NCBI RefSeq assembly: GCF_003865075.1
Contig: NZ_BHWB01000017.1
Location: 1 to 64,000, forward strand
DNA: 64,000 nt
Reading direction: 5' to 3'
Source: Bacteroides faecalis
GTDB lineage: Bacteria; Bacteroidota; Bacteroidia; Bacteroidales; Bacteroidaceae
Below, piece after piece: positions 6,597 through 43,763 of this stretch. Made by a program: the position numbers and the translations under genes. A model generated the notes under the pieces. The model did no database searches. It was not told the DNA's origin and saw only the letters and a program-made list of their open reading frames with translations. Each line of letters begins with the position of its first letter. Positions within the stretch are counted from its first letter, which is position 1.

Positions 6597-6624
6597 TTAA
6601 CGGGTACAAGAACAAATACAAAAA

Positions 6625-6712
6625 AACAGAGGTTCCATTCAAATGAATCAGAGCCTCTGTTTACTATAAATAGAACCTCCGTTTCTATCAAACAGAGGCT
6701 TCATTTTATCAC
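6625..6712. repeat. Four 22-base repeats forming two hairpins between convergent genes
   Basis: Units at 6625-6646, 6647-6668, 6669-6690 and 6691-6712 all begin A-A/T-C/T-AGA and share T at column 10 and TT at columns 14-15. Unit 1 pairs with unit 2 (AACAGAGG with CCTCTGTT) and unit 3 with unit 4 (AACCTCCGTTT with AAACAGAGGCT). The block thus looks like a double bidirectional terminator between msrC and cbpM. The last unit runs into the cbpM stop codon at 6709. Confidence 0.75.
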
Positions 6713-24398: not shown

Positions 24399-24486
24399 GG
24401 AGTATTCAGACCCTATTTCCAGACTATTAATAACTGACAAATAGACTATTAATACCTGTCAAATAGCCCATTAATACTCTACAAAC
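24399..24486. repeat. Four 22-base tandem repeats in the gap inside the PUL
   Basis: Units at 24399-24420, 24421-24442, 24443-24464 and 24465-24486. The middle two differ at two positions only. All share GA/GC-x-x-ATT-x-A in register. The 338-base gap 24317-24654, between GH76 and the SGNH gene on the same strand, holds nothing else that I recognise, so a secondary promoter or RNA-processing site for SGNH-GH2-GH2 could be here. Confidence 0.8.
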
Positions 24487-40915: not shown

Positions 40916-40987
40916 AAACAAAAGATGTGGATTATTCCTTATAATAACATATATTCGTGAACGAGTTTATAAATGCACTGTATGATT

Positions 40988-42004
40988 ATGAAGAAAATAA
41001 GAATCGGCATATTCATTGCCCTCTGCGTACTCTACTCCTGTACTTCTCGGACAGGAGATGTTTCTACTGTCGAGATACCACCGACTGATTCTGTGAAACA
41101 GGACACCATTGAAATACCTGTCATCAAGAAAATTACCGCAGAAGATATCCATATCAGCAAAGAATTATTGTATGACAAATATACACTGGAAGATACGTAT
41201 CCTTATAAAGATACAACTCGTGACTTTCAGTGGGATAAAATCAAAGAACGACTTGCTTTGCTCGAAACGATACAGTTACAACCGTCACGATGGGCTATTC
41301 TTCAAAATTATAAAAATAGGAACGGTGAAGCACCGCTCGTAAAAAACTATAAAAGAAATGCTTACAAACGTATTGCAGATACGCTGGGAGTAGAGCGTTA
41401 CCAATCCATACCTCTTTATCTGCTGACAGATACGCTTATCCCCGAACGTTACGGACAGGACGGCGAATTAGCACGTTTTCTGGAAGATGGAGAAAATTTT
41501 GTCAAAGTAGAACCCATATTCACAGGAGATGAATGGATGGTTCCTAAAAAGTATGTAAAAGTGATCGGTGATACGATTGTATTTAATAAAGCTATTTTCG
41601 TGGACCGCCACAATCAGAATATCGCTACTCTAGAACGTACAGGAGAAGGACAATGGCTGATCCGTAGTATGAACCCTTCTACCACAGGACTCCATCGCCC
41701 ACCGTATGCACAGGAGACTCCTTTAGGAATGTTTGTACTACAAGAAAAGAAGGTTAAAATGATATTCCTGAAAGATGGTTCGATAGAAACAGGAGGATAT
41801 GCCCCCTATGCCAGCCGTTTCACTGACGGAGCTTATATTCACGGAGTACCTGTCAATGCACCACGCACTACTCAAATAGAATATAGTTGGTCGTTGGGAA
41901 CCACTCCAAGATCACATATGTGTGTACGAAATGCGACCTCACATGCCAAGTTTATTTTTGACTGGGCCCCTGTAAATGAGACGATTATTTTTGTATTGGA
42001 ATAA
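40988..42004 (+). CDS. L,D-transpeptidase (YkuD family), lipoprotein
   Basis: This 338-residue periplasmic enzyme has lipobox VLYSC (Cys18 from the chosen start). YkuD enzymes make 3-3 crosslinks in peptidoglycan or attach proteins to it. The catalytic block shows DGAYIHGVPV (His) and, about 30 residues on, SHMCVRNATSHAKFIFDW with the nucleophilic Cys; family members usually read SHGC(I/V)R, so the Gly is Met here. The N-terminal 200 residues have no clear match. Three ATGs lie in frame (40973, 40982, 40988); I chose the last because it gives the best signal peptide. Confidence 0.82.
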   Translation: MKKIRIGIFIALCVLYSCTSRTGDVSTVEIPPTDSVKQDTIEIPVIKKITAEDIHISKELLYDKYTLEDTYPYKDTTRDFQWDKIKERLALLETIQLQPSRWAILQNYKNRNGEAPLVKNYKRNAYKRIADTLGVERYQSIPLYLLTDTLIPERYGQDGELARFLEDGENFVKVEPIFTGDEWMVPKKYVKVIGDTIVFNKAIFVDRHNQNIATLERTGEGQWLIRSMNPSTTGLHRPPYAQETPLGMFVLQEKKVKMIFLKDGSIETGGYAPYASRFTDGAYIHGVPVNAPRTTQIEYSWSLGTTPRSHMCVRNATSHAKFIFDWAPVNETIIFVLE

Positions 42005-42019
42005 ATTTTCCTATATTTG
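41990..42019 (+). promoter_or_regulatory. Promoter TTTG-N18-TATATTTG inside the end of the preceding gene
   Basis: TTTG (41990-41993) overlaps the last codons of the YkuD gene, and TATATTTG (42012-42019) follows its stop. The second transpeptidase gene thus has its own promoter, and its start lies at the ATG 42048. Confidence 0.65.
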
Positions 42020-42047
42020 CCACATCGTTTTTTATAGAATATCTATC

Positions 42048-42767
42048 ATGTTTCAGAAAATCGTATTAAGTTGTTTACTTCTTTTTTTCCCGATCAGCCA
42101 TATTTCTAACACAAATAGGGAAGATAATTCTGTACTTTCTTCTCTTCCCGTATCGGAATTGGCAGCAGGCGAACAGCTTTACGAAGAAATGGGATTGGCA
42201 GGTACAGTCAATTTTATCGCCTTTCGTCAAGCAGTAGCAGGTTACAACCGAATTCAAGGAAAGAAAAAACCGATACTGACACTGATCGATTTCTCTAAAC
42301 CTTCCACTGAAAAAAGACTTTATGTTTTCGACATTGACAAGAAAGAGCTTCTGTATAGTTCTGTTGTCTCTCATGGAAAAAATAGTGGAGACAATTATGC
42401 TACTTCTTTCTCCAATCAAACCGGTTCTTACAAAAGTTCATTGGGCTTTTATCTGACAGAAAACACTTATCAGGGAAAAAACGGATATTCACTTATTCTC
42501 AACGGATTGGAAAAAGGTATTAATGATAAGGCAAAAGAACGTGCAATTGTAGTGCATGGGGCTGCTTATGCCGATCCTTCTGTGATTGCTTCCGGGCGTT
42601 TGGGAAGAAGTTTCGGATGTCCCGCGCTTCCGCAGACTTTGACAAAGCCTATTATTAATACAATTAAAGACGGGAGTGTCATGTTTATCTATGCAAACAA
42701 TGCCAATTATCTGGCCCAAAGCAACTTTTTGAAAACAACGACTCGTAGCAACTCATCAAACTTATAG
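42048..42767 (+). CDS. Murein L,D-transpeptidase catalytic domain protein (YkuD_2)
   Basis: This exported protein of 239 residues has signal peptide MFQKIVLSCLLLFFPIS. It belongs to the YkuD_2 type, distinct from the gene upstream: SSVVSHGKNSGDNYATSFSN, then ERAIVVHGAAYA (His) and GRLGRSFGCPALP (catalytic Cys). The longer frame from 41976 overlaps the previous gene and its promoter, so I start at 42048. Two adjacent transpeptidases of different subfamilies suggest linked wall remodelling roles. Confidence 0.85.
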   Translation: MFQKIVLSCLLLFFPISHISNTNREDNSVLSSLPVSELAAGEQLYEEMGLAGTVNFIAFRQAVAGYNRIQGKKKPILTLIDFSKPSTEKRLYVFDIDKKELLYSSVVSHGKNSGDNYATSFSNQTGSYKSSLGFYLTENTYQGKNGYSLILNGLEKGINDKAKERAIVVHGAAYADPSVIASGRLGRSFGCPALPQTLTKPIINTIKDGSVMFIYANNANYLAQSNFLKTTTRSNSSNL

Positions 42768-42802
42768 TTCAATTCGTAACTTATATACGGTCAATCGAAT
42801 AG

Positions 42803-42934
42803 TTTCAAGCGTACAAACTAAGTGTTTCAACCCATGAAACTTTTAGTTCCAACGCTTGAAACACTTTGTTTCATGCCTTGAAACTATGTGTTCATCGTAT
42901 TGGAACAGAATGTTTCAAGTATTAAAAATATCCT
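42803..42934. repeat. Six 22-base imperfect tandem repeats with internal dyads
   Basis: Units start at 42803, 42825, 42847, 42869, 42891 and 42913, exactly 22 bases apart. Consensus is TTTCAAnnnnTTGAAAC followed by 3-4 variable bases and TG. Units 2-4 hold the dyad TTTCA/TGAAA most clearly, and unit 1 (TTTCAAGCGT) is the inverse of part of unit 3 (ACGCTTGAAA). The array sits between convergent genes. Confidence 0.85.
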
Positions 42935-43035
42935 GAAACAATATCGAAAAGGAAACAACGCAATAACGAAGTCTTCAATAAGTGATACAAGAATTATTAA
43001 GTTTAACCAGACAACCCAAATAAGGACGATACAAA

Positions 43036-43132
43036 GTGTGCAAGATAAACGATCTTACACCAATCTGCAACAGCATCTTACACACTATTAAACCATTATA
43101 TATCAAATAGATATATGCAGATTGTGTAAGAT
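43036..43132. repeat. ATCTTACAC direct and inverted repeats
   Basis: ATCTTACAC occurs at 43052 and 43075, and in inverse form at 43124-43132 (GTGTAAGAT) and, imperfectly, at 43036-43046. TGCAGATTGTGTAAG (43116-43130) is the near-perfect inverse of CTTACACCAATCTGCA (43054-43069). Long-range pairing is possible across the end of the 42768-43211 gap. Confidence 0.6.
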
Positions 43133-43211
43133 GGCAGATAAATTTCTTTTTTTAAACAGGGAGAGTTAAAGCATAGAGAGAGAATTCATAAAAATCCAAT
43201 ATGAATGTAAA

Positions 43212-43763
43212 TTATATATTGGCCATATATTTCCAAAGTGGAGCAGCATTCAATGCCTGCATTATTTCATTATTCTCGAGCAGTGTTTTTACTTCTTCCA
43301 GGGTCAGTAAATGTACAGTCAAATCTTCCGTAGCTTCCAGATGTTGATGATCAATCAACTCCACATCCGTAGCGAGAAAACAATGTGTCAAATTAGTATG
43401 TGTGCTTGGATTAGCGGAAATCACCATATATTCTTGCCAGTTTCCTTTTCCGTATCCAGTTTCTTCCCATAATTCACGTTGTGCAGATTCCAATGGAGAA
43501 GAATCTTCTTTTTCGCAAACTCCCGCACAAAGTTCATAACAATATCTCCCAATTCCCGGACGATATTGTCGAACCATAATAAATTTACCATCCTTAGTTA
43601 GAGCAATAGTATTTACCCAATCAGGATACTCCAGAATATAATATTCAGGAATATGATTTCCATTAGGGAGCAACATATCTTCACAGCGTACAGTCAGCCA
43701 AGGATAGCGGAATAGATATTTGCTACTGACTGTTTTCCAGGGTCTTTCTTTTTCTTCCATCAT
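43212..43763 (-). CDS. NUDIX hydrolase
   Basis: This 183-residue enzyme probably cleaves ADP-ribose or another nucleoside diphosphate derivative. WLTVRCEDMLLPNG and EYPDWVNTIALTKDGKFIMVRQYRPGI are typical of the ADP-sugar pyrophosphatase branch. The NUDIX box runs CEKEDSSPLESAQRELWEE with TGYG after it. Compared with GX5EX7REUXEEXGU it has one extra residue between the Gly and REL. It is a single gene with a good promoter of its own. Confidence 0.88.
   Translation of the reverse strand: MMEEKERPWKTVSSKYLFRYPWLTVRCEDMLLPNGNHIPEYYILEYPDWVNTIALTKDGKFIMVRQYRPGIGRYCYELCAGVCEKEDSSPLESAQRELWEETGYGKGNWQEYMVISANPSTHTNLTHCFLATDVELIDHQHLEATEDLTVHLLTLEEVKTLLENNEIMQALNAAPLWKYMANI

Follow-up and report, generated by a model that had tools for sequence, protein, structure and literature searches.

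We found that a six-unit tandem array of inverted half-sites in Bacteroides faecalis belongs to a real and widespread family of repeat arrays, which is under constraint as DNA and is linked to a gene family. The array lies in a stretch of 64,000 nucleotides of this genome (hereafter the window; contig NZ_BHWB01000017.1, positions 1 to 64,000), and we regard it as probably a non-coding copy, one of those dispersed through the genome, of the cis-element that serves a DNA-binding system. Because arrays of this kind often stand right behind genes for DUF6078 (PF19555) proteins, these proteins are a testable suspect as the reader of the arrays and, as far as the sequences can tell, our best lead.

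Table 1 The array of the window and the features around it
Feature	Positions	Strand	Evidence
Six-unit array, GTTTCA-N5-TGAAAC plus 5-bp linker	42802..42934	none	Dyad pattern search and TRF
Perfect dyad unit GTTTCAACCCATGAAAC	42824..42840	none	Pattern search
Perfect dyad unit GTTTCATGCCTTGAAAC	42868..42884	none	Pattern search
L,D-transpeptidase (YkuD, PF03734)	40973..42004	+	Pfam
L,D-transpeptidase (YkuD_2, PF13645)	41976..42767	+	Pfam; array begins 34 bp past its stop
F1 element	43036..43141	-	BLAST, 74% over 108 aligned bases, E 7e-15
NUDIX protein (PF00293), convergent neighbour	43212..43763	-	Pfam

The unit of the window array is a 17-bp dyad, GTTTCA-N5-TGAAAC, followed by a 5-bp linker, and half-sites therefore alternate about every 11 bp. 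The first-pass annotation had described six units at exact 22-base steps between convergent genes, and both points were borne out: the units begin at 42802, 42824, 42846, 42868, 42890, and 42912, TRF detected the array independently, and the host gap (intergenic, 42768-43211) separates the second L,D-transpeptidase gene from the NUDIX gene. The motif given there, TTTCAA-N4-TTGAAAC, was off by one base; it has zero exact matches in the window and 2 or 3 mismatches within the array, and with 45 found versus 53 expected it is no commoner in the window than chance. Single units of the corrected pattern with up to 3 mismatches were slightly enriched in the window (64 versus 47±7.5, a count reached by 1 of 100 shuffles). 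An inverted repeat in every unit was likewise only part of the picture, as two units are perfect dyads and the others have 1-4 mismatches (2, 0, 1, 0, 4, and 2 in 12 positions along the array), which means that some units are poor dyads. The placement of all six sites on one helix face is approximate: the DNA helix has 10.5 bp per turn, each 22-bp step thus drifts by about 34 degrees, and units one and six would by this arithmetic stand about 170 degrees apart. The gap also contains a copy of the F1 element, whose source is the sequence past the stop of an F1-type DUF6078 gene of this genome (G000:C41:7612-8043), so that the gap holds two pieces of DUF6078-linked repeats.

According to the first-pass annotation, its reading would be refuted by a lack of other occurrences and of a binding protein, with the array missing from sister strains. 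The array does occur elsewhere, namely in the same genome, in other genomes, and in Bacteroidales contigs, and its loss from relatives is true in part: sister species G046 has the array adjoining the NUDIX gene, with a couple of kilobases of other DNA between array and transpeptidase, and the same gap in G001 holds a different array with a 21-bp period. For two units spaced 22 bp apart, with up to 3 mismatches allowed, the 5.77-Mb genome gave 52 forward matches, and the reversed control gave 0. These 52 matches fall in at least 21 clusters, three of which are duplicates with identical flanks (C1:239275/C1:320316, C2:387955/C17:87725, and C6:5501/C46:6822 of G000); the first pair adjoins an ORF that reads like a putative transposase. 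Exact single dyads (N5 or N6) numbered 65 genome-wide versus 1 for the control. With up to 2 mismatches, the pattern matched 9 of 41 genomes (this one included), all of one genus, and 0 of 16 genomes from other families of the same order. An exact scan of genome contigs returned at least 113 stretches, mostly from Bacteroidales and mainly from Bacteroides, Prevotella, Paraprevotella, Mediterranea, and Alloprevotella; among the matches listed were a few metagenome bins labelled Treponema, Spirochaetaceae, or Clostridiales. Viral contigs held only 1 stretch with the array pattern, on which ground a phage origin was rejected.

The anatomy of the units was derived from 131 distinct arrays with 600 units. 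The spacer has 5 bases in 508 units and 6 in 92, and the linker has 5 bases in 456 cases and 4 in 13. Half-site positions carry 1.4 to 2.0 bits of information and spacer or linker positions at most 0.41. Most arrays terminate in complete dyads, an extra half-site (up to 1 mismatch) lying beyond 17 of 128 left ends and 13 of 130 right ends. In the sister species G046, whose aligned loci are mostly 92-96% identical, 12 orthologous arrays differed, after removal of gapped columns, at 29 of 694 half-site positions (4.2%, a conservation partly inflated because arrays were picked by their half-sites), versus 84 of 302 spacer positions (27.8%), 55 of 228 linker positions (24.1%), and 420 of 5199 flank positions (8.1%). 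Half-sites have thus been kept while spacers and linkers diverged, which suggests recognition at the DNA level. Replacement takes whole words at a time: changes of at least 3 bases occurred in 12 of 49 spacers and in 10 of 42 linkers, versus 8 of 985 flank 5-mers. Spacers are identical in 10.2% of pairs within arrays versus 1.0% between arrays, and reverse complements make up 1.4% of pairs within and 1.0% between, which shows that arrays grow by direct tandem duplication of units. As reverse-complement spacers are barely enriched inside arrays, a long cruciform was rejected, and so was frequent segment inversion, because 3 of 22 strongly changed words fit the reverse complement (4-5 of 5 positions) with about 2.1 expected. 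By eye, one two-unit block seems to be inverted between sister species (L031 4031-4091 compared with L226). Some arrays adjoin the same genes in distant species, with fresh spacers. Shared flanks turned up as well, contrary to an earlier view of the flanks as unrelated.

The link to a gene family came from clustering the genes adjacent to arrays, in which DUF6078 recurs across genera. The at least 113 pattern loci include six DUF6078 genes, and all six have an array 6-108 bp behind the stop. A search of 21 genomes gave 53 DUF6078 matches in 17 of them. Of the first 30 genes, 23 are followed by an array with lag 22 (20 genes) or lag 23 (3 genes), defined as a self-match of at least 38 of 60 within 330 bp downstream, compared with 20 of 822 control genes; lags of 15-19 and 25-29 gave no array behind the 30 genes. 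When 20 loci were added, 35 of 50 DUF6078 genes carried an array within 330 bp downstream (two short matches and one copy with stops are excluded from the set). Ten of the remaining 15 are followed by another recurrent element, a call made by eye and for two by BLAST, and five by neither at the threshold. Arrays and proteins also vary together: array similarity climbs with protein identity, the 553 pairs below 80% identity giving a rho of 0.29 and a Mantel test over 34 arrays giving P 0.0005, and paralogues within one genome have unlike arrays (mean score 9.9 versus a shuffled baseline of 8.0). Like dyads group in several clades of the protein tree, but the GTTTCA label itself requires 7 changes on it, compared with a shuffled mean of 10.2 and with 11 of 500 shuffles as low (row L379 is labelled GTTTCA despite an F1 element between gene and array).

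The distribution among genomes points the same way in part. DUF6078 was sought in eight of the 9 array-bearing genomes and gave 3-5 matches in each, and likewise in G046, in which a GTTTCA array lies directly behind a DUF6078 gene. Among five array-free genomes searched, two (G003 and G014) have no DUF6078, one has two stop-bearing copies, and two have DUF6078. Three genomes (G022, G024, and G011) have DUF6078 matches yet no GTTTCA arrays, and most DUF6078 genes there have an array of another dyad behind them. Behind the GTTTCA-type DUF6078 gene of the present genome (C5:222313) come an F3 element and a VapE-like gene; the array lies beyond them, about 2.4 kb off. Dispersed relatives of gene-linked tails were found as well: the tail of L398 in G021 matches a dispersed array in L245, and this genome has dispersed copies that match the tails of L376 and L420. 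At L420 (1362-3452), L376, L374, and L400, a VapE-like gene faces a DUF6078 gene in convergent orientation, and a recurrent element separates the two. The F elements accompany the arrays, being found beside 19 of 262 array sides versus 2 of 1434 control pieces, where the 19 include the F2 query itself and some orthologous cases. Their orientation is constant in 11 of 11 DUF6078 tails and in 8 of 8 F2 copies (7 of 7 without the query). F2 and F3 also occur away from arrays in this genome; by our own count, 7 of 19 F2 and 7 of 9 F3 matches have a GTTTCA array or dyad no more than about 400 bp away.

The protein itself offers modest clues. In AlphaFold models of six DUF6078 sequences, the C-terminal domain is confident (residues 71-120 have block means over 90) and the Cys-rich N-terminus is poor. 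A Foldseek search at E 0.001 returned no significant fold match, and the PDB contains no meaningful sequence match. In a further fold comparison, against the families on the VIA list, the top two rows were helix-turn-helix (HTH) proteins, the controller C.Kpn2I (Z 4.4, 62 residues, 3.1 A) and the C-terminal domain of MqsA (Z 3.4), both scores being too low to trust, and the value of 4.4 may reflect just a common arrangement. The C-terminus is perhaps an HTH domain, weakly similar in fold to regulators of the controller and MqsA type, which have operators of their own. MqsA has a Cys-rich N-terminus, and so have the DUF6078 proteins. In Pfam at E 0.01, DUF6078 was the sole match in three partner proteins and in L114, and the name DUF6078 was not found in the literature searched.

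The position of the arrays relative to genes bears on two other readings, in which they act on their neighbours as DNA or as RNA. Gene contexts came from a crude ORF caller, and duplicated and orthologous arrays were kept in the counts. Of 134 array rows, 97 lie in gaps with both flanking genes, 10 overlap an ORF, and 27 are at locus ends. The 97 gaps comprise 32 convergent, 14 divergent, and 51 tandem pairs, compared with 32, 69, and 88 in 189 control gaps of at least 150 bp, so that divergent pairs are depleted (Fisher P 1e-4) and convergent pairs enriched (P 0.003). In tandem pairs, 34 of 49 arrays are nearer the upstream stop, with a median distance, over the 49 cases, of 66 bp from that stop and of 186 bp from the start codon downstream. 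Because they are rare between divergent genes and lie close to stop codons, the arrays are unlikely to be operators of neighbouring promoters. The genes that adjoin them are many and unrelated, and exact dyads outside the known clusters number two among the places listed, one of them inside a decayed array, for which reason a regulon of solitary operators was rejected. Although inverted half-sites that are better conserved than their spacers would suit it, a classical array of transcription-factor operators for the adjoining genes is therefore highly improbable. Of the protein operator proposed by the first-pass annotation, the part that is supported is a putative protein-binding array of inverted half-sites; a role as operator of the peptidoglycan genes is not supported. 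An RNA element, in which the transcribed array forms hairpins that end transcription or shield the 3' end, would fit the nearness to upstream stops, and the window array does fold better than shuffles (z -7.65) and slightly better than word-replaced versions (z -1.86). However, 123 arrays whose spacers and linkers were swapped for the words of other arrays revealed no extra folding (mean z 0.09, s.e. 0.11). Stem pair 6 has two-sided changes in 8 units versus 4.3 expected, a slight excess, but the most variable, stem pair 4, has them in 4 units versus 5.8 expected and the other four pairs in none, and changes in paired half-sites are mostly uncoupled. There is no strand bias of G-U wobbles (15 wobble-type and 19 mismatch-type changes on the sense strand), and Rfam gave zero matches at the gathering score. 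Neither compensatory stem changes nor folding beyond the half-sites emerged from these tests of stem covariation, spacer pairing, wobble, and folding, and an RNA hairpin array was rejected as the main reading; we consider it improbable.

The main rival as binder is the HU-HIG family (PF18291), DNA binders of the HU superfamily with 9-41 matches per genome, which might read the arrays while DUF6078 is a mere neighbour. Arrays with a period of 20-24 or 42-46 bp accompany 18 of 40 HU-HIG loci (the best matches of four genomes) versus 24 of 240 control windows, and in the present genome a lag test (36 of 60) placed an array upstream of 8 of 22 HU-HIG genes and downstream of none. In G042, where DUF6078 was not found, seven of 20 random stretches contain arrays that match the one upstream of an HU-HIG gene, and BT4734-like or VapE-like genes stand beside one HU-HIG gene, the BT4734-like gene at L347, as well as four DUF6078 genes. 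DUF6078 is therefore not the sole family tied to such arrays. Against this reading, no HU-HIG gene was found near GTTTCA arrays except a broken copy in the window, 42 kb off, and 0 of 24 HU-HIG matches checked in this genome have a GTTTCA array within 500 bp upstream; HU-HIG copy number tracks arrays but also genome size (partial rho 0.53, P 0.06 in 13 genomes). HU-HIG was thus rejected as the binder of GTTTCA arrays by its absence beside them and is retained as an unlikely rival. Somewhat less unlikely, though still doubtful, is a selfish minisatellite or MITE without host function, whose half-sites persist since copying needs them. Block replacement of spacers between sister species, tandem duplication, companion elements in fixed orientation, and the three arrays duplicated together with their flanks all accord with it, and BrickBuilt of Porphyromonas gingivalis is a published example (PMC4596501). 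It is harder to reconcile with arrays that are retained by the same genes in distant Bacteroides with half-sites intact, as beside a GH3-type gene (L024, L129, L140, and L143).

In the reading that we prefer, DUF6078 proteins would occupy their cognate half-sites next to one another along the array, and copies dispersed elsewhere would be non-autonomous offspring of the gene-linked array, like the REP/BIME sequences of RAYT genes. What dispersed arrays do is a guess; most likely they would form a protein-coated block at gene ends, as a transcription boundary or a nucleoid anchor. REP/BIME sequences with their RAYT are dispersed extragenic palindromes that cluster 3' of genes and are related to the palindromes flanking a dedicated gene, which encodes a Y1 (HUH) tyrosine transposase. 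The arrays resemble them in that dispersed repeats are related to those by the partner gene, but their units are 22-bp tandem dyads, and no Y1 transposase model fits the DUF6078 proteins tested; we read the arrays as candidate REP/BIME-like binding arrays with a new partner protein. Tentatively, and with slightly more doubt than confidence, we propose that DUF6078 proteins are small sequence-specific DNA binders, each of which evolves together with a 22-23 bp dyad array behind its gene and with a set of copies dispersed over the chromosome, as in a REPtron without the transposase, and that they explain at least part of the constant-size repeats discussed below. BrickBuilt, from a host of the same order as the present one, consists of 23-nt imperfect repeats in 19 dispersed and always intergenic copies, with gain and loss of units and with leader and tail modules, and it has IS5-like terminal inverted repeats (PMC4596501).

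Constant-size repeats were described by Subirana and Messeguer as tandem repeats of a constant 20-23 nt with variable sequence and several families per species, with at least four regular repeats required by the program SATFIND; no obvious function is given, and polymerising nucleoid proteins or small RNAs are proposed, with the partner unnamed (PMC8161180). The window array has six steps, but its units have diverged. Our period counts, which include overlapping TRF rows and coding rows, agree with one size, many sequences, and several families per genome: random 400-kb samples gave 7/4/2 (G021), 3/12/4 (G042), and 3/7/10 (G056) repeats of period 21/22/23, versus 1/0/0 in 400 kb of E. coli K-12, other repeats in 1.08 Mb of array loci cluster at period 21-22 by TRF, and the sequences of 21-23-bp repeats vary by species. 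Dyads are only part of this repeat class, since in the random samples few rows of period 20-24 (2 of 15, 4 of 21, and 4 of 21) reach P 0.05 when their consensus is put through a simple test for palindromes. To the published description, in which a term search found no mention of Bacteroides or palindromes (PMC8161180), the present work adds dyad half-sites, spacer turnover, a 3' location, and a linked gene family. DUF6078 would thereby be a concrete candidate reader for constant-size, variable-sequence repeats in common gut bacteria; if this is true, the repeats form a system that spreads and diverges along with the protein that reads its DNA, and a family of proteins whose function has been unknown gains a role.

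Several other arrays of similar period were observed along the way. HU-HIG genes at L347-L361 and L307-L346 have an upstream 22/23-bp array with differing dyads, and several of these loci have near the array a TATCTTTG box, which we take to be a Bacteroides promoter element. Positions 89-159 and 184-252 of the window hold dyad arrays (period 22 and 21) upstream of the broken HU-HIG gene; its two pieces, at 383-586 and 490-1014, match PF18291 in different frames, and the latter piece falls short of the curated cut-off. Four units, counted by eye, of another 22-bp dyad, AAACAGAG-N-CTCTGTTT, occupy 6624-6711 of the window (6649-6696 by TRF), and a 22-bp array centred on TATTAATA lies at 24421-24485, with similar arrays near GTTTCA arrays in L024, L027, and L035.
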